A stretch of DNA of 38,013 nucleotides, taken from contig JAKOZI010000249.1 of the NCBI GenBank assembly GCA_029780075.1, positions 1 through 38,013 on the forward strand, written 5' to 3'. Position numbers and translations under genes: made by a program. Origin of the DNA: Pseudomonadota bacterium (GTDB lineage: Bacteria > Pseudomonadota > Gammaproteobacteria > Burkholderiales > Rhodocyclaceae). Under the pieces are notes generated by a model. It did not search any database and was not told the origin of the DNA. It was given only the letters and a program-made list of their open reading frames with translations. Numbering within the stretch: position 1 is the stretch's first letter; every line of letters starts with the position of its first letter. Shown here in pieces: positions 2,218-24,188 of this stretch.

Positions 2218-3756
2218 TTAATCCACGGCGCTGCGTTTGAAGTCGCGCAGGCGAAAGCCTGCAACCCATAGTGTAGCGAAATAGACGCTCGCCCCGAAGC
2301 AGACGAGCAAGGAAAGATGCAACAGCCGGGTGGCGAGCGGCCAGATCAGCCAGTCGGCCGTGGCGCCAACGGCAAACCACAGCGAAACACCCATGCTCGA
2401 CAGGGCGCAGGCCAGCTTGCCGTAGAACACCAGCCAGCCCGGCTGCGGCGTATAGATGCCGAGCTGACGCAGGCCGCGATAGAGCAGGCCGGCGTTGAGG
2501 CTCGCGGCGAGGCCGATGGACAGGGCCAGCCCGGCGTGTTCGAGCCAGCCGATCAGCAGCAGGTTCAGCACCTGTGTGACAAAGAGCGTCAATAGGGCGA
2601 TCCTGACCGGGGTGCGGATGTTCTGGCGGGCGTAGAAGCCGGGTGCCAGCACCTTCACCAGGATCAGCCCGAGCAGGCCGATGCTGTAGGCGGCCAGCGC
2701 GTCGCGGGTCCTGAACACATCGGTGGCGGTGAAGGCTCCGTGGTGGAAGAGCGTGGTGATTAGCGGCACGGCGAGAATGGCGAGCGCCAGCGCTGCCGGT
2801 GCGGCGAGCAGGAAGGTCAGGCGCAGGCCCCAGTCGAGCAGACGGGAGTATTCCTCCGGTCGCTCGGCGGCGTGGCACTTGGCCAGCGAGGGGAGGAGCA
2901 CGGTGCCCAGGGCGGCGCCGAGCATTCCGGCCGGGAACTCCATCAGGCGGTCGGCGTAGTACAGCCAGGAGACGCTTCCGGTATTGAGGAAGGAGGCGAA
3001 TACGGTGTTCAACAGCAGGCTGACCTGCGCTACCGAAACCCCGAGTACCGCCGGCGCCATCAGCCGAAAGATACGCCGTACGCCCTCGTCCTGCAGGTTG
3101 ATCGAGAATCGCGGCAGCATGCCGATGCGCCGCAGGCTGGGGATCTGGAAGGCAAGTTGCAGGGCGCCGCCGATAAACACCGCCCAGCCGAGGGCCATCA
3201 CCGGCGGTTCGAATTGCGGTGCGGCGAAGAGCGCCATCAGGATGAACGAGACGTTGAGTAATACCGGCGTGAATGCCGGCACGGCGAATCGGTTCCAGGT
3301 GTTGAGAATGCCGCCGGCAAGTGCCACCAGCGACATGAACAGGATATACGGGAAAGTGAGGCGGGTGAGACTGACCGTCAGGGCGAACTTGTCCGGATCG
3401 TCGGTAAAGCCGGGTGCCGAGAGATAGACCAGTAGCGGCGCGCCGGCCATGCCGAGCAGGGTGACGGCGAAAACCACCAGCAACAGCAGGCTGGCCACAC
3501 GGTCGACGAGCTGCCGGGTTTCCTCGACCGGACGCGTGTTGCGATACTGGCCGAGCACGGGTACGAAAGCCTGCGAGAAGGCGCCTTCGGCAAACAGGCG
3601 GCGCAACAGGTTGGGAAGCTTGAAGGCCACAAAGAAGGCGTCGGTGAGCAGGCCGGCCCCGAAGGCGCGCGCAATCACGAAGTCTCGGACAAAACCGAGG
3701 ATGCGCGACAGCAGGGTCATGCTGCTGACGGTAGCGAGAGTCTTCAGGAGGTTCAT
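2218..3756 (-). CDS. murJ: Lipid II flippase MurJ
   Basis: A 512-residue polytopic inner-membrane protein of the MOP superfamily that flips the peptidoglycan precursor lipid II to the periplasmic face. The N-terminus MNLLKTLATVSSMTLLSRIL followed by GFVRDFVIARAFGAG is the typical MurJ start. Further family signatures are FFVAFKLPNLLRRLFAEGAFSQAFVPVL (about 42-69) and, near the middle, NTVFASFLNTGSVSWLYYADRLMEFPAGMLGAALGTVLLPSLA. About 14 hydrophobic helices can be counted, the usual number and length. A GGAG site precedes the ATG at 3756. Its start lies 16 bases after the stop of the exonuclease fusion gene, so the two are probably co-transcribed. The 30S protein S20 gene (rpsT), often found near murJ in betaproteobacteria, is not adjacent here. 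Confidence 0.97.
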   Translation of the reverse strand: MNLLKTLATVSSMTLLSRILGFVRDFVIARAFGAGLLTDAFFVAFKLPNLLRRLFAEGAFSQAFVPVLGQYRNTRPVEETRQLVDRVASLLLLVVFAVTLLGMAGAPLLVYLSAPGFTDDPDKFALTVSLTRLTFPYILFMSLVALAGGILNTWNRFAVPAFTPVLLNVSFILMALFAAPQFEPPVMALGWAVFIGGALQLAFQIPSLRRIGMLPRFSINLQDEGVRRIFRLMAPAVLGVSVAQVSLLLNTVFASFLNTGSVSWLYYADRLMEFPAGMLGAALGTVLLPSLAKCHAAERPEEYSRLLDWGLRLTFLLAAPAALALAILAVPLITTLFHHGAFTATDVFRTRDALAAYSIGLLGLILVKVLAPGFYARQNIRTPVRIALLTLFVTQVLNLLLIGWLEHAGLALSIGLAASLNAGLLYRGLRQLGIYTPQPGWLVFYGKLACALSSMGVSLWFAVGATADWLIWPLATRLLHLSLLVCFGASVYFATLWVAGFRLRDFKRSAVD

Positions 3757-3772: not shown

Positions 3773-5938
3773 TCAGTACTTCACGCGCGCAAAGTAGGTC
3801 TTTTCGGAAGCCTCCAGTGCCTGCCGCAGCGTGACGATTCCGATCTGAGCCAGCAGTGGCAGCATTTTCAGGAACACCTCTCCAGTGGTGCAGGCATCGC
3901 CCAGCGCACTGTGGCGGCCGGTAACCGAAACGCCCAGCCGTTCGGCGATGCTGTCGAGCTGGTGAGAGTCCTGGTTGGCATGCAACACACCAGACAGCAA
4001 CAGGGTATCGAGTACCGGCTGGCTGAAGACTACACCGGTACGTTCTTCCTTCATCTGCAGGAAGCGCATGTCGAACGCCGCGTTGTGCGCGACGAGCACA
4101 GTGTCGCTACAGAAATCATGGAAGGCCGGCAGCACCACGTCGATGTGCGGCTGACCACGCACCATGTCGTCCGTGATGCCGTGGATGCGGGTTCCTTCGG
4201 GGCGCAGAAAGCGCTCTGGATCGACCAGCTGATTGAAGTTTTCGTTGCGCAGGAGGCGGCCGTTGACGATGCGCAGCGCGCCAATCTGGATGATTTCGTC
4301 GCCAGCTGCGGGTTCGAGGCCGGTGGTCTCGGTATCGAAGACCGTGTAGACGAGGTCCGAGAGTGGTCGATCCAGGTCGGCGCTCTGATCCCGAAAATGG
4401 AACAGGTCGAAGTCGTAATACTCCGGGCGCACGTCATCGACGTCAACGCTTTCTCCTGTGGCCATGTTCTCCGGAGGCACGACGGGCAGGACAAAGCGGA
4501 AGAACGCACGATGTGCAGCCTTTTCGCGGTCGTACCAGATTTCACCGCCGTGGCGGTCAATGACGTCGCGCAACGACAAGGGTGAGCTCTCGTTTCCCAC
4601 TTGCATGGCATCCGTTTCCCAGGTGTAGAAGGTCTCCGATGACATGGCGTGCCCGGCCCAGATGATGTCGAGATAGGCCAGCTTGCCGAAGGGCAGCAGC
4701 CGGAAGCGCAATTCCTTGATTTGATAATGATCGATCAGACGGGAGGCAAGGAAGCAGATCGAGAATACCAGGGAGAAGCTCTCCGCTCTCAGCCACAGCC
4801 CTTCGTCGATCTCTTCCATCTTGCTCGGCAGTTTCAGCCGTGCTTCGATGCGGCGCTGGGCGGCGGCGATGAGGTCGATTCCGAGGACGTCTTCGAGTGG
4901 CCAGCGGGTCTTCAGCGAATCGGCAAACTCGGTCATCGTCTGGTCGAGACGTTGACTCATGCGCACGACTTCATCACTGATGATGCTGACGAAGCGCTCG
5001 CGAATCTCCATTTCCATGTCCGGGTAGTCCATCAGGTTGCCGACGGCCACCCGGATGTTGGCCAGGCAACCCCGGCTGCCGTCGGTCAGCGACTGTAGCA
5101 CCTGATCACGGCGCGATTCCTGTTCCAGGCTGCGGGTGATGTTTTCCACGGTGAGCACGTAACCGCTCATCTCGCGCTGCTGGGATTCGTCGCGGGACGA
5201 CAGTACCGGTACCAGTTGAACACGCAAAAGCTGCCCGCCGCGGGCAGTCGTAATGAAATTGGCGATCGCTGCTGCTGCGCCTTTATGCAATCGCTGGCGC
5301 ACGACCTCCAGCGCGTGGTCGATCTGATTGCGTTCGAGAATCGAGAAGATCGAACGTCCGAGGCCGATCAGCGCGCCGCTGGCCAGGGCTGCGCCAGCTT
5401 GTGCCAGACCGCTGAATTGCAGGCGCGCGCGGCTGTTGTAGAGCAGGATGCGACCATCACGATTGCAGACCACTACCGCTTGCGCCAGTTCGGACATCAG
5501 CGCGGCCAGGCGGTTCTTCTCTTCCTCGACCGACGACTTGGCAGCGGCGATCTGGGCATCGACATCGTCCATCAGACCATCGCGCTGCTGCGCCAGATCA
5601 TTCGTCGCCTGGGCCAGCAACTGGACCTCCGGTGGACCCTCCGGCGTCACTCTGAAATTGCGGTTGGCCGACAGCATCAGGCGCAGGCTCTCGGCCATCT
5701 TGAGCAATCCCTGTACGTACTGGCGGAACAGGTAACGGATGACGAGCAAACCGACGACGAACCCGAAGGTAGTCATCAATGCGCCTAGTGACAGGTGTGG
5801 CGCGATCAACTGGATGAGCAGCGTCTGCTCTGCCGGCTGCGCATCGGCCCAGATCAGGACTGCCGTAATCAGGAAGGGCCCAGTCATCAGCATGCCAAGC
5901 ACGATGACGGAAACGATGAAACGTATGCGCGCGTTCAT
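3773..5938 (-). CDS. Membrane sensor, degenerate kinase and DEDDh 3'-5' exonuclease fusion
   Basis: A 721-residue multidomain protein. Two membrane helices (about 5-30 and 48-71) are followed by a HAMP-like linker and coiled coil (about 72-150), a PAS-like domain (about 150-265; VVVCNRDGRILLYNSRARLQ near its start), and a helical dimerisation-like segment (about 275-345). Residues 350-495 resemble a GHKL ATPase, ending in a segment like the G2 end of histidine kinases (DRHGGEIWYD, then FFRFVLP). The expected phospho-acceptor histidine is absent: the equivalent helix reads DGSRGCLANIRVAVGNL. A clear N-box is also missing. The C-terminus (about 530-700) is a DnaQ/PolC-type exonuclease with all five catalytic residues: D535 and E537 (VFDTETTG), D623 (HNAAFD), H676 and D681 (HSALGD). 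I infer a membrane-anchored nuclease controlled by a sensor pseudokinase. The substrate is unknown. It probably shares a transcript with murJ. Confidence 0.85.
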   Translation of the reverse strand: MNARIRFIVSVIVLGMLMTGPFLITAVLIWADAQPAEQTLLIQLIAPHLSLGALMTTFGFVVGLLVIRYLFRQYVQGLLKMAESLRLMLSANRNFRVTPEGPPEVQLLAQATNDLAQQRDGLMDDVDAQIAAAKSSVEEEKNRLAALMSELAQAVVVCNRDGRILLYNSRARLQFSGLAQAGAALASGALIGLGRSIFSILERNQIDHALEVVRQRLHKGAAAAIANFITTARGGQLLRVQLVPVLSSRDESQQREMSGYVLTVENITRSLEQESRRDQVLQSLTDGSRGCLANIRVAVGNLMDYPDMEMEIRERFVSIISDEVVRMSQRLDQTMTEFADSLKTRWPLEDVLGIDLIAAAQRRIEARLKLPSKMEEIDEGLWLRAESFSLVFSICFLASRLIDHYQIKELRFRLLPFGKLAYLDIIWAGHAMSSETFYTWETDAMQVGNESSPLSLRDVIDRHGGEIWYDREKAAHRAFFRFVLPVVPPENMATGESVDVDDVRPEYYDFDLFHFRDQSADLDRPLSDLVYTVFDTETTGLEPAAGDEIIQIGALRIVNGRLLRNENFNQLVDPERFLRPEGTRIHGITDDMVRGQPHIDVVLPAFHDFCSDTVLVAHNAAFDMRFLQMKEERTGVVFSQPVLDTLLLSGVLHANQDSHQLDSIAERLGVSVTGRHSALGDACTTGEVFLKMLPLLAQIGIVTLRQALEASEKTYFARVKY

Positions 5939-9445: not shown

Positions 9446-11206
9446 TTAACTTGCCGGGACTGCGCACATCTCCGTCGCCGCCTTGACGACCAGGATGTCT
9501 TCCATCACCAAGTACTGCAAATCCGACCCGAAAAACATGTCCAGTGCATCGGTCGGAGAGCAGATCATCGGTTCGCCGCGGCGATTGAGCGATGTGTTGA
9601 GGACCACGCCGTTACCGGTCAGCTTCTCGAGTGCGCTCATCAAGTCGTGATAACGCGGGTTGAACTCGTGTTTCAACACCTGCGCACGCGAGGTACCGTC
9701 TTCGTGTACGACTTCGGGGACACGTTCCTTCCAGCCTGGGGCAACTTCGAAGGTGAAGGTCATGAACGGTGCGGGATGTCCGCTGTTCAGCATCTGCGGC
9801 CCGACGCTGTCGAGCATGCTCGGGCAGAACGGTCGCCAGCGCTCGCGGAACTTGATCTGGGCGTTGATCCGGTCGGCGACCCCGGCAACGCTCGGGCAGC
9901 CCAGAATCGAGCGGCCGCCAAGGGCGCGCGGACCAAATTCCATCCGCCCCTGAAACCACGCCACGGGGTGTCCGTCCGCCAGCAACCTGGCGACGCGCTG
10001 CGGCACCTGCTCGATCCGTTGCCACGCAGGCTGCGCCGGATGGCGGGCGCAGGCGGCGATCACGTCTTCGTTGCTGTACGCAGGTCCAAGGTATACGTGC
10101 TCCATCTTCTCGACCGCCACGCCGCGCTGCACCGAGACATAAGCGGCTGCGCCGACCGCCGTCCCGGCATCGCCGGAAGCGGGCTGGACAAAGAGTTCCC
10201 TGACATCGGGACGGGCAATGATTTTCTGGTTAAGCTTCACGTTCAACGCACCGCCGCCTGAAAAGGCGAGGCGTCCGGTGTCGCGCAGAATGTCGGCAAG
10301 GTAATAGTCGATCATCTGCAACGACAGATCCTCGAACAGCTTCTGCATGCTTGCCGCGTAGTGGATGTAGGGGTCGTCGGCGACGTCTCCCGAACGCCGC
10401 GGACCTAGCCAGTCGACCAGTTTCGGCGAAAAATAATAGCCTTTCCCGCTTTCCTTGTAGCGACGCAGGCCGATTACGTTGGCATAGTCGGTATTGATGG
10501 TCAATTCACCGTTCTCGAATTTGGCCAGGCGCGAGAAGTCGTATTTACCGGGGTCACCATAGGGGGCCATGCCCATCACCTTGTACTCGCCGTCCAGCAT
10601 CTCGAAACCCAGATACTCGGTCAAGGCGCCGTACAAACCGCCCAGGGAATCGGGATCGTAGAACTCCTTGAGCTTGTGAATCCGGCCATTCTCGCCGTAG
10701 CCAAAAAAGGTGGTGGCGTACTCGCCCTTGCCATCGATGCCGAGAATCGCCGTCTTCTCACGGAATCCCGAGCAATGGTAGGCACTGGCCGCGTGCGCCA
10801 GATGATGCTCGACCGGCACGATTTCCGTATTTTTCAAATCGAAACCGAGTTGCTGCAGGCACCATTCGATACGCTTCCGGTAACGGTAATAGCGCCGGTT
10901 ACCGCTCAGAATGGCATCCATGGCACGCTCCGGCGCGTACCAGTAGCGTTTGGCATAGTGCCAGCGCGCGGGCTCGGAAAGGCTGATCGGGGCAAAGGGG
11001 ATGGCAACGGCGTCGACATCGGCGGGCTTGATGCCGGCAAAGTCGAGGCAGAACTTCGCGGCTTCGTAGGGCATGCGGTTCTTGGCGTGCTTGTCGCGGA
11101 CGAAGCGTTCCTCTTCTGCGGCTGCGACGAGCCTGCCGTCGATGTAAAGCGCCGCCGAAGGGTCGTGGGTCAGCGCGCCGGACAATCCAAGTAGGGTCAG
11201 TGCCAA
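9446..11206 (-). CDS. NodU/CmcH-family O-carbamoyltransferase
   Basis: A 586-residue carbamoyltransferase that should move the carbamoyl group of carbamoyl phosphate, through carbamoyl-AMP, onto a hydroxyl of a sugar or other small molecule. The N-terminal Kae1-like domain carries GALTHDPSAAL (10-20), AAAEEERFVRDKHAKNRMP (28-46), the metal-binding HHLAHA (134-139), DGEYKVMGMAPYG near 204-216 and SGGGALNVKLNQKI near 318. The C-terminal YrdC-like domain carries WFQGRMEFGPRALGGRSIL near 418-436 and VLNTSLNRRGEP near 545. All recognised signatures are present and length is normal. It starts with TTG (GCACTG follows); an in-frame TGA lies eight codons upstream and there is no clear ribosome site. 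An LpxL-type gene lies 146 bases upstream on the same strand, so the target may be a cell-surface glycan or lipid; that is inference. Confidence 0.93.
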   Translation of the reverse strand: MALTLLGLSGALTHDPSAALYIDGRLVAAAEEERFVRDKHAKNRMPYEAAKFCLDFAGIKPADVDAVAIPFAPISLSEPARWHYAKRYWYAPERAMDAILSGNRRYYRYRKRIEWCLQQLGFDLKNTEIVPVEHHLAHAASAYHCSGFREKTAILGIDGKGEYATTFFGYGENGRIHKLKEFYDPDSLGGLYGALTEYLGFEMLDGEYKVMGMAPYGDPGKYDFSRLAKFENGELTINTDYANVIGLRRYKESGKGYYFSPKLVDWLGPRRSGDVADDPYIHYAASMQKLFEDLSLQMIDYYLADILRDTGRLAFSGGGALNVKLNQKIIARPDVRELFVQPASGDAGTAVGAAAYVSVQRGVAVEKMEHVYLGPAYSNEDVIAACARHPAQPAWQRIEQVPQRVARLLADGHPVAWFQGRMEFGPRALGGRSILGCPSVAGVADRINAQIKFRERWRPFCPSMLDSVGPQMLNSGHPAPFMTFTFEVAPGWKERVPEVVHEDGTSRAQVLKHEFNPRYHDLMSALEKLTGNGVVLNTSLNRRGEPMICSPTDALDMFFGSDLQYLVMEDILVVKAATEMCAVPAS

Positions 11207-20165: not shown

Positions 20166-21320
20166 GTGGAAGCTGTCGAACCCATCCTTCGGCCGCCGCA
20201 GGACGACCCGGCGAAGTGGCCTTCGCTGGCCCTCTCGGCGACCGTCCACTTGCTGCTCATTGCTGCGCTGTTCCTCGGTGTGCAGTGGAAGAGCACGCCG
20301 CCTAGCGCAGTCGAAGTCGAAGTCTGGCGTGCCGTCCCGGCTCCCACACCAGCGAGCCAACCCGAACCAAGACCGGAACCCCGGCCGGAGCCCAAAGCAG
20401 AACCAAAGTCCGCACCCAAAGCGGAGCCGAAACCCGAACCCAAGCCCGAACCCAAGCCCGAACCCAGACCGATTCCGAAACCGGCTCCCATTCCGGAGCC
20501 GAAGCCTGAACCCAGGCCGGTTGCCAAAGCGATGCCGAAACCCGAGCCGAAAGCGGAACCCAGGCCACCCATCAAGCCGGATATTCCCCTGAAGGAAGAG
20601 AAAAAGCCCAAGGAACCGCCGAAGAAGGAAGAACCCAGGGTCAAGGAGCCGCCGAAGAAAGACGAGCCTAAGCCGAAGGAAGCACCGCCAAAGAAGGAAA
20701 CGCCGAAAAAGGAAGAACCCAAACCGAAGGAAACTCCGCGCAAGGAAGAACCGAAGACAAAGGAACCCGTGCGCAAGGAAGAACCCAAACCCCGGGAACC
20801 TGAACGAAAAGACGAGCCGAAGGCAAAGGAAGCGTCCCGGAAGGAAGATCCGCGTAAACCGGAAACGGATCCAAGGCCAAACCCGCGTGATGCCCTGGAT
20901 CGTGAACTGAAGGAACTCAAACAGCAGAAGGCTGAGCAGAAAGCCGCAGAGGATAGGCGCGCGCGCGATGAAGCTCAGGAGCGTCTACGCAAGCAGTTGC
21001 AGACCGAGCAGGCGTCGGCCGAGAAAGCACGTGCGCAGTCGCTCGACGAGGAGGCGTACAAGCACAGAATTCGCCTCAAGGTTCGCAATAACGTGTCGTT
21101 GCCACCCGGCATCCAGGGTAACCCGAAGGCGGAGTTCGAAGTGACGCAGCTTCCCACCGGCGATGTGCTCGATGTCAGGCTACTCCGGTCGAGCGGGAAC
21201 CCGGCGCTCGATGCTGCGGTCGAGCGAGCGATCCGCAAGTCGTCGCCGTTGCCCAAGCCGGCCCAACCCGAACTCTTCAAGCGTGTTCTCAACCTGTCGT
21301 ATCGACCCCAGGACGACTAG
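20166..21320 (+). CDS. tolA: Tol-Pal system protein TolA
   Basis: A 384-residue inner-membrane protein that spans the periplasm and links the TolQR motor to TolB/Pal. It starts with GTG at 20166, 11 bases after tolR, without a clear ribosome site, so coupling to tolR is likely. Residues about 18-39 are the membrane anchor ([20 protein letters not shown]). Residues about 58-155 are built of Pro-Glu-Pro-Lys units; about 155-240 are Lys/Glu/Pro repeats; about 240-295 are a charged helical stretch. The C-terminal domain (about 297-384) has [37 protein letters not shown] and [13 protein letters not shown], the TonB-like TolA domain. The rigid proline-rich linker differs from the alanine-rich helical linker of enterobacterial TolA. 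Confidence 0.95.
20433..20466 (+). repeat. 12-bp tandem repeat inside tolA
   Basis: Almost three direct copies of the 12-bp unit CCCGAACCCAAG, encoding PEPK. They sit in a longer imperfect Pro-Glu-Lys repeat region (about 20361-20880). Such near-exact units can change in number by slippage, which would alter the length of the TolA linker. Confidence 0.8.
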
Positions 21321-21500
21321 CAAGGCACCACGGTTGTGCAACCATGGCCTCTGCTCACCACCGTGAACGCCCATCAAGTCGGCCTCTTTGCCGATTCCCG
21401 CGAACTCGTCGTCGGGATCTTCAAGAGCCAGGTCATGCCTGCAGCGTTCGGCATTCGGCAAGATCACGTTTCGTTACAAATCAAGCGCATTCAGAGACGA

Positions 21501-21506
21501 TATAAT
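21501..21506 (+). promoter_or_regulatory. Candidate -10 element upstream of tolB
   Basis: A perfect TATAAT lies 25 bases before the tolB ATG, in the 211-base gap after tolA. No convincing -35 sits at 16-18 bases; TTACAA at 21474-21479 is 21 bases away. It suggests tolB-pal-cpoB-queE can be transcribed separately from the upstream tol genes. The remainder of the gap shows no other feature. Confidence 0.45.
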
Positions 21507-21531
21507 CGCGCATTCTGTACTGGACTGCCCC

Positions 21532-22824
21532 ATGCTTGGAATTGTGATCAAACTTCGTCGTTTCGGCCTCCTGGCCATCGGCGCGCTGGCCCTGCTGCAG
21601 GCTTCGGCGCACGCCCAACTGACCATTGAAATCACCGGTGCCGGCGCCAACCGAATCCCGGTGGCGATCGCCGATTTTGGCGGCGAGGCCAGCGCAGCAC
21701 GCGTCGTTACGTCCGTCGTACGTGGCGACCTGGAACGTAGCGGCCTGTTCAGGATGATCGACCCTGGCGCAGCGGTCATGACCGAGGCGTCCGCCCCGGT
21801 CTACGAGGAGTGGAAGAGCCGGGGTGCCGACGCGCTGGCTGCCGGCAGCATCGGCGAAAGCACCGACGGTCGACGTGAGGCCCGTTTCCGGCTCTACGAC
21901 GTCACCAAGCAGAGCGTGCTCGGCGGCTCCGCTTTCGTGACCTCGAAGCCGATGTTGCGTGCCGCCGGCCATCGCATTGCCGACATGATCTACGAAAAGC
22001 TGACCGGTGAACCCGGCATCTTTTCCACACGAGTCGCTTATGTGATCAGGGCCGGCGCCGCGCGTTACGAGTTGCACATCTCCGACGCCGACGGCCAGAA
22101 CGCACAGGTGGCACTGATCTCGAAGGAGCCCATCATCTCGCCCTCCTGGTCACCCGAGGGCGGCCGTCTGGCCTATGTGTCTTTCGAAAACAAGAAGCCG
22201 GTGGTGTATGTGCATTCACTGGCCTCGGGAAAACGTATTGTCGTGGCCAACTTCAAGGGCTCTAATTCGGCGCCGGCGTGGTCGCCTGACGGGCGTAAGC
22301 TGGCGGTGGTGCTGAGCAAGGACGGCGGCTCGCAGATCTTCACGGTCAACGCCGATGGATCCGGCGTGCTACGCCTGACCACAGCCAATGCGATCAATAC
22401 CGAACCCAACTTTTCTCCTGACGGACAATTCGTCTATTTCACGTCCGACCGTGGCGGCAGCCCGCAGATCTACCGAATTGCCGCCGGTGGCGGCGACGCG
22501 CAGCGAGTCAGCTTCGAGGGCAGCTATAACGTGACGCCGCGCCTTTCCCCGGACGGCAGGTCGATGGCCTTCATCAGCCGACGTGACGGCAGCTTCCGTC
22601 TTGCGGTGATGGACCTTGCCAGCCGGCAGGTACAGATCCTCACGGACTCGCACAAGGACGAATCACCGACTTTCTCACCGAACGGTCGAATGATCCTGAT
22701 TGCCACCGAGGTCGGCGGCCGTGGCGTCCTGTCCGCAGTTTCGATCGATGGACGGATCAAGCAGCGCCTTTCGATTGCGGCGGGCGATGTTCGTGAACCG
22801 GCGTGGGGACCCCTCAACAAATGA
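21532..22824 (+). CDS. tolB: Tol-Pal system periplasmic protein TolB
   Basis: A 430-residue periplasmic protein that bridges TolA and the outer-membrane lipoprotein Pal. Signal peptide at about 1-28 (LLAIGALALLQASAHA). The N-terminal TolB domain (about 29-160) begins QLTIEITGAGANRIPVAIAD. The C-terminal beta-propeller (about 170-430) shows the repeated WSPDG/FSPDG motif: SPSWSPEGG, APAWSPDGRKLA, EPNFSPDGQFVYFTSDR, TPRLSPDGRSMAF, SPTFSPNGRMIL. The ATG at 21532 gives a proper signal peptide; there is no Shine-Dalgarno sequence in front of it. pal follows after 40 bases. Confidence 0.97.
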   Translation: MLGIVIKLRRFGLLAIGALALLQASAHAQLTIEITGAGANRIPVAIADFGGEASAARVVTSVVRGDLERSGLFRMIDPGAAVMTEASAPVYEEWKSRGADALAAGSIGESTDGRREARFRLYDVTKQSVLGGSAFVTSKPMLRAAGHRIADMIYEKLTGEPGIFSTRVAYVIRAGAARYELHISDADGQNAQVALISKEPIISPSWSPEGGRLAYVSFENKKPVVYVHSLASGKRIVVANFKGSNSAPAWSPDGRKLAVVLSKDGGSQIFTVNADGSGVLRLTTANAINTEPNFSPDGQFVYFTSDRGGSPQIYRIAAGGGDAQRVSFEGSYNVTPRLSPDGRSMAFISRRDGSFRLAVMDLASRQVQILTDSHKDESPTFSPNGRMILIATEVGGRGVLSAVSIDGRIKQRLSIAAGDVREPAWGPLNK

Positions 22825-22864
22825 AGAATCATTCCCATCACGAATCTTGTGCAGGAGAAACACC

Positions 22865-23395
22865 ATGAAGCAACTCCTTATCCCGGCCGCCCTGGCTCTC
22901 ATCATGGCCGCGTGCAGTTCGACGCCCGAGGGCAGCGACCCAGCCGCAGGCGCACCCGTCGAGAGCCGCGGCGGCGGGTCGTCGGTGACGACGGTGACCA
23001 CGGGTGGAGTCGAGACCGGCCGGTTGCCGGCGGTGCTCACCGATCCGAAGAGCATCCTGTCCAGACGCAGCGTCTATTTTGACTACGACAGCTATGAGGT
23101 CAAAGCCGAGTACAAGGATCTGGTGACTGCGCATGCCAAGTTCCTGACTGAGAATCGCCAGTTCAAGGTGTTGATCCAGGGCAATACCGACGAGCGCGGC
23201 AGTCGCGAGTACAACCTGGCTCTGGGTCAGAAGCGCGCCGACGCCATCCGCAAGATGTTGGCTTTGCTCGGTGCCCGCGAGGAGCAACTCGAGTCGGTCA
23301 GCCTGGGCGAAGAGAAGCCGAAGAATGAAGGCCATAACGACGCTGCCTGGGCCGAGAACCGTCGCGGCGACATGCTCTACAACGGCGAGTTCTAG
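22865..23395 (+). CDS. pal: Peptidoglycan-associated lipoprotein Pal
   Basis: A 176-residue outer-membrane lipoprotein that anchors the outer membrane to peptidoglycan. The signal peptide ends in MAAC, with C17 as the lipidated residue. A Gly/Thr-rich linker (about 18-60) leads to the OmpA-like domain (about 70-176): SVYFDYDSYEVK, VLIQGNTDERGSREYNLALG, with the conserved Asp and Arg that bind diaminopimelate in NTDERGSREYN. A good ribosome site (AGGAG) precedes the ATG at 22865. Confidence 0.97.
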   Translation: MKQLLIPAALALIMAACSSTPEGSDPAAGAPVESRGGGSSVTTVTTGGVETGRLPAVLTDPKSILSRRSVYFDYDSYEVKAEYKDLVTAHAKFLTENRQFKVLIQGNTDERGSREYNLALGQKRADAIRKMLALLGAREEQLESVSLGEEKPKNEGHNDAAWAENRRGDMLYNGEF

Positions 23396-23411
23396 GGTGG
23401 CGGCAACGCCC

Positions 23412-24188
23412 ATGGTATGCCGGTGGGGCATTGCGCGCGCTCTGGCGATCGCCTTTTCGCTTGCCGTACTGGCCGCGCATCAGGCACAGGCCGGCCTCTT
23501 CGATGACGAAGAAGCACGACGCCAGGTCAAGGATCTGTCGGTCAAGACCAACGAACGCCTCGACACTTTCGCCAAAGGACAAATCGAGCTGGCGAACCAG
23601 ATACAGGCCCTGCGTGAAGAGAACTCGCGCCTGCGTGGTCAGGTCGAGACGCTGACCTACGAGCTGGAATCGACCAAGAAACGGCAGCAGGATTTCTACG
23701 TCGATCTCGACGGTCGCCTGCGCAAACTCGAGCCACAGGCCGCGGCGAACATTGAGGCAAGACCGGCGGAAGAGAGCAAGCCGGTGGTCGAGGCACCCAG
23801 AAAGGTCGTCAGCGATCCGGCGGCCGAGACCCGCGAATACGAAGCAGCGCTCAATCTGTTCAGGGCGAACAAGCTCAAGGAAGCGGCGGCGGCTTTCGAG
23901 ACCTTTGCCAAAGCCCATCCGGAGAGCACGCTGACCCCAAGCGCACAATACTGGCTCGGCAACGCCCACTACGCGCTGCACGACTGCAAGAAGGCGATCG
24001 ATGCACAGCGGGTAGTGGCCAACAAGTGGCCGGCGCACGCCAAGGCCCCTGATGCTCTGCTCAACATCGCCACCTGCCAGCAGGAACTCGCCGATGCGAA
24101 GGGAGCGAAGAGTACGCTCGAAGCCTTGCTGGCCAAGTACCCGGAAAGTGCCGCGGCTACCACCGCCAGGCAGAGACTGAAAAAGTAG
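23412..24188 (+). CDS. cpoB: Cell division coordinator CpoB (YbgF)
   Basis: A 258-residue periplasmic protein that couples the Tol-Pal machine to septal peptidoglycan synthesis in E. coli. Signal peptide at about 1-27 (ALAIAFSLAVLAAHQAQA). A trimerising coiled coil follows (about 28-100: DEEARRQVKDLSVKTNERLD and on), then a linker and TPR repeats (about 135-258) with AALNLFRANKLKEAAAAFET, SAQYWLGNAHYAL and ALLAKYPESAAATTARQRLK. The ATG at 23412 lies 16 bases after the pal stop; a GTG at 23397 in the same frame is an alternative. It ends four bases before queE. Confidence 0.95.
   Translation: MVCRWGIARALAIAFSLAVLAAHQAQAGLFDDEEARRQVKDLSVKTNERLDTFAKGQIELANQIQALREENSRLRGQVETLTYELESTKKRQQDFYVDLDGRLRKLEPQAAANIEARPAEESKPVVEAPRKVVSDPAAETREYEAALNLFRANKLKEAAAAFETFAKAHPESTLTPSAQYWLGNAHYALHDCKKAIDAQRVVANKWPAHAKAPDALLNIATCQQELADAKGAKSTLEALLAKYPESAAATTARQRLKK

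Follow-up and report, generated by a model that had tools for sequence, protein, structure and literature searches.

A membrane-anchored pseudo-histidine kinase fused to a DEDDh exonuclease in Candidatus Accumulibacter and its relatives

Results

We identified, in the window (the whole 38,013-bp stretch of Rhodocyclaceae DNA analyzed here), a single open reading frame spanning exactly 3,773-5,938 on the minus strand, whose 721 residues join a membrane sensor with a degenerate histidine-kinase core to a DEDDh exonuclease; frame 1 of the plus strand of the same interval is interrupted by stops. The fusion is a new combination of known parts, and our searches of open-licence papers turned up no account of it. 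We tentatively propose, with a little less than even confidence, that it is a DivL-like pseudokinase that would read the phosphorylation of a lone response regulator and gate the membrane-anchored exonuclease in the control of acetate and pyruvate use. The features of the gene and its neighbor are as follows:

3773..5938, minus strand: whole gene, TM-TM-coil-PAS-pseudo-histidine-kinase-DEDDh exonuclease, 721 aa (stop codon included)
5852..5908, minus strand: first membrane helix, residues 11-29 (hydropathy; helix in the model)
5738..5794, minus strand: second membrane helix, residues 49-67 (hydropathy and model)
5489..5737, minus strand: juxtamembrane helix and coiled coil, residues 68-150 (model; HAMP-like by eye only)
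5138..5488, minus strand: PAS domain, residues 151-267 (profile search, Foldseek, per-member Pfam scan)
4904..5137, minus strand: DHp-like two-helix region, residues 268-345 (D286 is the phospho-acceptor site; R289 is invariant, on the docking side)
4478..4903, minus strand: CA-like (ATPase-like) domain, residues 346-487 (profile, model, Foldseek, column counts)
4400..4429, minus strand: conserved linker motif RPEYYDFDLF, residues 504-513
3776..4348, minus strand: DEDDh exonuclease domain, residues 531-721 (Pfam, PDB sequence and fold matches)
2218..3756, minus strand: murJ, neighbor in the window genome, outside the conserved unit

The sensor and the exonuclease are fused in one frame

The open reading frame bears out the original prediction, made from the sequence alone, that sensor and exonuclease share one frame, and both halves lie within one frame in 77 of 80 named relatives by a full-length test, so that the fusion is due neither to chance nor to an assembly artefact, and the latter is ruled out. 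The three loci failing the test are L121, L151, and L175 (the last two approach contig ends), and L170 was counted as full-length despite a frame split near residues 70-95. These 80 are the best of at least 574 relatives and were selected by the motif RPE[YF]YDF[DA], so the motif and nearness to the window are built into all counts on them; their taxonomy follows the record titles. A diverse set of 30 rows, which includes L075, was not motif-selected, and in it R504, D509, and F510 of the linker are kept in all 30. The prediction had named separate halves in homologues as a sign of an artefact: the fusion is kept as stated, yet one relative (in G186) consists of the exonuclease only, at 203 aa.

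Hydropathy places the two predicted membrane helices at about residues 11-29 and 49-67, and the loop of ~20 residues between them means that a sizeable periplasmic domain is absent. Pfam found nothing above cut-off in the window protein except RNase_T (residues 532-688, E = 1.1e-35, 124.1 bits against a cut-off of 24), which was also matched by all 23 members of our alignment A2. Among the same 23 members, PAS_4 was matched by 13 (E up to 0.05), though not by the window protein itself, HisKA by five (E up to 0.05), and HAMP by one (E = 0.017). A family profile built from 18 members over residues 110-530 matched VicK (4i5s, E = 1.2e-14), the WalK PAS domain (3.4e-08), and HK853 (about 2e-05) in the PDB, whereas the window sequence alone reached only E = 0.025. 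In an AlphaFold2 model from 36 sequences (mean pLDDT 72.2, pTM 0.35), two long helices at the N terminus are followed by a coil, a PAS-like fold, the two helices of a DHp region, a CA domain of alpha/beta type, and the exonuclease; Foldseek matched this model to WalK (1.7e-18), VicK (1.1e-14), the PolC-type exonuclease 2p1j (3.9e-09), and DivL (4q20, 2.5e-07); since the pTM is low, the relative placement of the domains in the model is untrustworthy. Thus, of the HAMP/PAS-like sensor that had been proposed, the PAS part stands (13 of the 23 members, and the WalK PAS structures), and HAMP is only hinted at by the single member.

The kinase motifs are lost and the nuclease motifs are kept

We set the register of the kinase motifs by eye against the histidine kinase encoded in the operons described below, and by an alignment with VicK. 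At position 286, the phospho-acceptor site, the 80 named loci have Glu in 41, Asp in 28, Gln in 11, and His in none; the 30 diverse rows have Glu in 20, Asp in seven, and Gln, Val, and Arg in one each, again with no His. A His is found four residues before the acceptor site, at 282, in 44 of the 80 named loci (the window protein has Gln there). The CA-like domain lacks the N-box Asn: position 400 is Arg in 62 and Lys in 18 of the 80 (in the neighboring register, 399, four loci have Asn), and the G1-box Asp is replaced by Trp427 in all 80 named and all 30 diverse sequences. Neither an acceptor His nor an N-box Asn together with a G1 Asp, as an active histidine kinase would have, was found among the 80 named loci, and the protein is instead a pseudo-histidine kinase, with PAS and a DHp/CA fold and no acceptor His. 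The kinase core is dead by sequence, and the original prediction was right that it has no phospho-acceptor His and no clear N-box; an intact H-box or N-box, which would have spoken against that prediction, was seen neither in the profile search nor in the columns.

The five catalytic residues of the exonuclease (D535, E537, D623, H676, and D681) are all found in the window protein, and are present in 80, 80, 79, 77, and 77 of the named loci, respectively, the remainder being gaps. All five are kept in 29 of the 30 diverse rows; the active site therefore reads as intact, and the domain is, as predicted, a complete DnaQ-type exonuclease. The exception, L075:509-2734 (+) in G111, is a full-length homologue that has lost the catalytic residues, a dead kinase joined to a dead nuclease, and was excluded from alignments A1 and A2 and from the tree. 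The solved structures nearest in sequence are PolC, DnaQ-type epsilon, and DinG exonucleases, the PolC-type 2p1j being closest. Among the 25 best NCBIfam models listed, the broad subfamily domain TIGR00573 alone passes (105.2 against 71.5 bits), and no equivalog passed.

Incoming or foreign DNA had been suggested as a target. PADLOC models matched the fusion protein in the exonuclease domain only (a CRISPR-associated DEDDh model and PDC-S48), and among four neighbors they matched the ABC ATPase alone, to ATPase models; this gives no support to the suggestion, and we rejected a role in foreign-DNA defence.

Operon context in relatives

A single-domain response regulator (REC) lies directly upstream of the fusion gene in 65 of the 66 named loci outside Accumulibacter, and a histidine kinase (HK) of the SLC5 type, about 900 aa long, precedes the REC in 63 (no HK match was obtained in L132, nor in L131 and L179, whose contigs begin too near the gene). 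A DUF294 gene is directly downstream in 47 of the 66 and anywhere in the locus in 49; several of the 19 with no match directly downstream do have sequence there. The REC also adjoins the distant fused relatives L070, L072, L073, and L074, and none of HK, REC, and DUF294 is beside the gene in the 14 named Accumulibacter loci. For example, the order in Dechloromonas hortensis (L126) is acs, HK, REC, the fusion gene, DUF294, cNMP-CBS-DUF294, a gene for a 233-aa protein, and actP. The Azoarcus locus (L173) has no DUF294 and runs acs, HK, REC, the fusion gene, and actP. The SLC5-STAC kinase and acs/actP accompany the gene in L126, L173, and L171, and the copy in the window is detached from such a set.

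Hydropathy gives about 13 membrane helices for the HK, and a profile of its N-terminal part matched the CbrA SLC5-STAC structure 10ED with E = 3.2e-91; two HKs were also scanned with Pfam SSF, which matched neither at E up to 0.5. The operon REC encoded elsewhere in the window genome is 124 aa long and consists of the receiver only, with no output domain, so that it is not a transcription-activating regulator of the CrbR kind. The residues expected for phosphorylation are in place: D11, D12, D55, and K107 are each conserved above 97% in 65 aligned rows (own sequence included). Together, the SLC5-STAC kinase, REC, acs, actP, and DUF294 point to carbon-source signaling.

A membrane-tethered enzyme of general nucleic-acid repair or proofreading, with no signaling role, would fit the nearest solved relatives of the exonuclease domain. 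The same domain is fused to a PAS-pseudokinase in 77 of 80 relatives and constantly placed after a REC and an SLC5-type HK, which makes housekeeping repair very improbable, and the statement that the protein is not a standard DNA polymerase proofreading subunit is upheld.

We also observed a small DnaQ-like protein encoded between DUF294 and actP (L126:12873-13574 (+) and L213:7668-8405 (-)). It lacks some of the catalytic residues, the five places reading, as aligned, D-V-V-R-N in Dechloromonas and D-E-V-H-D in the window genome, and is possibly a dead exonuclease beside the live one.

Pairing with DUF294

DUF294 genes were found in 32 of 114 genomes of the class, and we surveyed 30 loci (own included). 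A DEDDh frame lies within the 1.5-kb flanks of 22 of the 30 DUF294 loci, as compared with 1 of 30 murJ control loci. All 22 frames (from loci L184-L212) keep D, E, D or E, H, and D; the third place is Glu in 15 of them, which may mark a subfamily. L192 and L206 are fusions, and long open frames are also found, for example, in L185, L186, and L195. Given this linkage, the pair of exonuclease and nucleotidyltransferase seems to have come first, with the pseudokinase fusion as a later elaboration.

The pairing, and the kept catalytic residues of the 22, agree with a scheme in which DUF294 would add a nucleotide, either onto a protein or onto the end of an RNA, the DEDDh exonuclease would remove it, and the pseudokinase would set the balance according to the carbon signal. 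It is also in keeping with the operon formed by PP_0353 and PP_0354 in Pseudomonas putida (PMC9927547), and with the reported grouping of DUF294_C with GlnD/GlnE-type domains (PMC3710099). The 19 of 66 operons that lack DUF294 directly downstream weigh against it, and the linkage may mean shared regulation only; we consider such a writer and eraser improbable.

Copies, phylogeny, and selection

The nearest named loci among the best 80 are from Candidatus Accumulibacter (79-89% identity over the query stretch), and by these relatives we place the window in that genus. We compared 28 Accumulibacter genomes, the window's own among them: 27 have a copy of the window type at 80% or more, the one in G022 being partial, and all 28 contain a second copy, 48-52% identical to the window-type copy. 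In a sample of 185 genomes from the class, a cut-off of E = 1e-40 leaves ten with a match, the window genome being one; eight of the nine others match both halves, and G186 the exonuclease only.

In a tree of 52 chosen rows, the window copy falls in a single Accumulibacter clade (100/100), which joins L144 and the operon copies of Azonexaceae (18 rows, 100/96). The second copy groups elsewhere, with L039 (98/94), although the program warned of long branches meeting, including those of the second-copy clade and L039. In the window genome, the second copy is on contig 146, in the order aceE-aceF-lpd, HK, REC, second fusion gene, and CBS-DUF294, and contig 241 contains acs, a long DUF294 gene, a gene for a small protein, and actP, with none of HK, REC, and the fusion gene between them. 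No other HK of the SLC5 type was found in this genome at E up to 1e-60. On the simplest reading, the window-type copy of Accumulibacter is a detached member of the operon, and the second operon supplies the HK and the REC.

The detached clade is under purifying selection: pN/pS across 15 sequences is 0.179 overall, 0.130 in the exonuclease, 0.166 in the PAS domain, and 0.094 in the DHp region. By rate, the DHp region ranks 20 of 644 sequence windows in this clade, among the slowest, which suggests a kept partner; it ranks 639 of 644 in the Azonexaceae operon clade, among the fastest, and 367 of 644 in Thauera/Azoarcus, in the middle, which argue against a tightly conserved docking face.

These rates bear on a second possibility, that the protein senses through its PAS domain and membrane segments with no receiver involved, the dead kinase being a dimer scaffold that relays a redox, metabolite, or membrane signal to the exonuclease, and the neighboring HK and REC serving another target. 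The well conserved PAS domain of the detached clade (at the pN/pS just given), the persistence of Accumulibacter copies with no HK or REC alongside in the 14 named loci, and the freedom of the DHp region to vary in the Azonexaceae operon clade are what would be expected; a REC directly upstream in 65 of 66 loci and beside L070, L072, L073, and L074, and the slow DHp region of the detached clade, count against it. We regard it as unlikely.

We also observed a third copy in six Accumulibacter genomes (L050, L052, L054, L055, L056, and L077), one with an inner stop and one incomplete. Neither HK, REC, nor DUF294 was found by these where flanks were available, and the three included in the tree are offshoots of the second copy. 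The second copy of G022 also has one inner stop.

Discussion

A possible route from a carbon-source sensor to a nuclease

In our favored reading, the SLC5-STAC kinase, a sensor that resembles a transporter as CbrA and CrbS do, would phosphorylate the output-less REC. A receiver with no output domain needs a protein target, and the adjoining gene offers a docking fold together with an enzyme; because the dead kinase core keeps the receiver-docking DHp fold, it would most likely work like DivL and read the phosphorylation state of the REC through that fold. Binding of the REC, together with the PAS domain and the membrane segments, would then shift the dimer state and thereby activate or silence the exonuclease at the inner membrane. 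This enzyme, possibly in concert with the DUF294 nucleotidyltransferase where one is present, would act on a nucleotide substrate, most likely RNA 3′ ends, and the outcome would be tuned use of acetate and pyruvate. The detached Accumulibacter copy may respond to the REC encoded with the second copy. A more specific form, a transceptor route that runs non-transcriptionally from the SLC5-STAC kinase through the bare receiver and the dead kinase to the exonuclease, the latter and DUF294 opposing each other as eraser and writer of RNA 3′ ends or of some nucleotide mark, seems to us doubtful.

DivL, which has neither kinase nor phosphatase activity, uses the canonical docking face to bind DivK~P, and this binding requires R553, located three residues past the site of the lost His (PMC4211667). 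R289 of the fusion protein matches R553 in this position and is retained in 80 of 80 named and 30 of 30 diverse sequences, which, with the REC linkage in 65 of 66 loci, speaks for a possible binding of the phosphorylated REC; R289 is also part of the ordinary HisKA H-box (H-E-L-R), and its retention may reflect ancestry alone. Several observations run against the favored reading: the Accumulibacter copy has no adjacent REC, the DHp region evolves fast in the Azonexaceae operon clade and at a middling rate in Thauera/Azoarcus, 19 of 66 loci have no DUF294 directly downstream, L075 has lost its catalytic residues, and the domain arrangement is weakly modelled. Work on P. putida speaks on both sides: in favor of the reading, growth on pyruvate was delayed in a pp_0353 deletion mutant; against it, the mutant grew normally on 20 mM acetate. 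DNA use was likewise unaffected, and the authors suggest a role in mRNA decay (PMC9927547).

Relation to known systems

PP_0353 of P. putida KT2440 is an RNase_T protein in an operon with the CBS protein PP_0354, and belongs to the regulon of an SSS/STAC kinase (MxtR/ErdR = CrbS/CrbR) that also controls acs and actP; the sections of that report available to us mention no membrane part or pseudokinase, and describe a regulator acting on promoters, whereas the REC here is a bare receiver (PMC9927547). From the reported RNase_T hit and the neighbors, PP_0353 is presumed to be a stand-alone relative of the fused exonuclease, and the 203-aa protein of G186 to be of the same type.

Caulobacter DivL shares with the fusion protein the PAS-DHp-CA build, the missing acceptor His, and a single-domain receiver as partner (and the Foldseek match to 4q20), but it acts on the kinase CckA, and its acceptor site is Tyr rather than Asp, Glu, or Gln. 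To our knowledge, DivL carries no exonuclease-type enzyme, unlike the fusion protein. WalK and VicK, the best profile and fold matches, have the same PAS-DHp-CA build after membrane helices; as compared with them, the fusion protein has lost the catalytic His, the N-box Asn, and the G1 Asp, has gained an exonuclease, and has no sizeable periplasmic domain. PolC, DinG, and Cas2-DEDDh likewise fuse this DEDDh catalytic domain to another module, but their partners are a polymerase, a helicase, and Cas2, and here it is a sensor module.

If the gating is real, a two-component pathway would drive a nuclease directly, a dead kinase would have a function beyond the DivL case, and the DUF294-exonuclease pair, which recurs across the class (in 22 of 30 DUF294 loci) and is so far unexplained, would gain a concrete role. 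Accumulibacter grows on acetate and is a main agent of phosphorus removal in wastewater plants; if it controlled acetate and pyruvate use post-transcriptionally through such a switch, that would be of practical interest.

The murJ neighborhood

As had been noted from the sequence, murJ directly follows the fusion gene in the same direction; the gap is 16 bases. The adjacency was found in none of 18 other genomes of the same genus: in most of them, the fusion gene and murJ are on separate contigs (an adjacency across a contig break is possible where the gene is terminal, in L021 and L022), and only in G004 do they share a contig and lie close together, about 10 kb apart at most and in opposite directions. 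Nor was murJ beside the gene in the flanks of 26 other genus members (the downstream flank of L022, at 233 bases, is below the 90-aa cut for open reading frames). In the class, a DEDDh frame was found in the flanks of 1 of 30 murJ loci, the window's own, and in none from the 29 other genomes. The proposed linkage is therefore not conserved, and a murJ partnership was rejected on the adjacency counts of genus and class; the murJ neighborhood is incidental, as follows if an ancestral operon was broken up and the gene relocated to varied sites. As a whole, the original prediction stands for the membrane sensor, the kinase core with no acceptor His or clear N-box, and the intact nuclease site, and falls for murJ and foreign DNA.

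We also recorded other features around the gene and its relatives. In the window genome, an Iso_dh gene and an ABC-2 transporter pair precede the fusion gene, with a NodU-like carbamoyltransferase gene (window 9446-11206, minus strand) upstream of them, and a tol cluster (20166-24185, plus strand) encodes a TonB/TolA-like C terminus, TolB, and a protein with a TolA-binding trimerisation domain. In G020 (L094), matches to the 18-25 kb part of the window adjoin the fusion gene, indicating shuffling of the neighborhood within the genus. In the complete genome G009, mutL-miaA lies beside the gene, a link absent from the other genus loci examined, and L048:2477-6608 of the same genome encodes, by the fusion gene, a T6SS-type FHA protein, a ParA-like ATPase, and a caspase-domain (Peptidase_C14) protein. 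The mutL match of the window genome itself (L099, G000:C200:1437-3332) carries one in-frame TAG.
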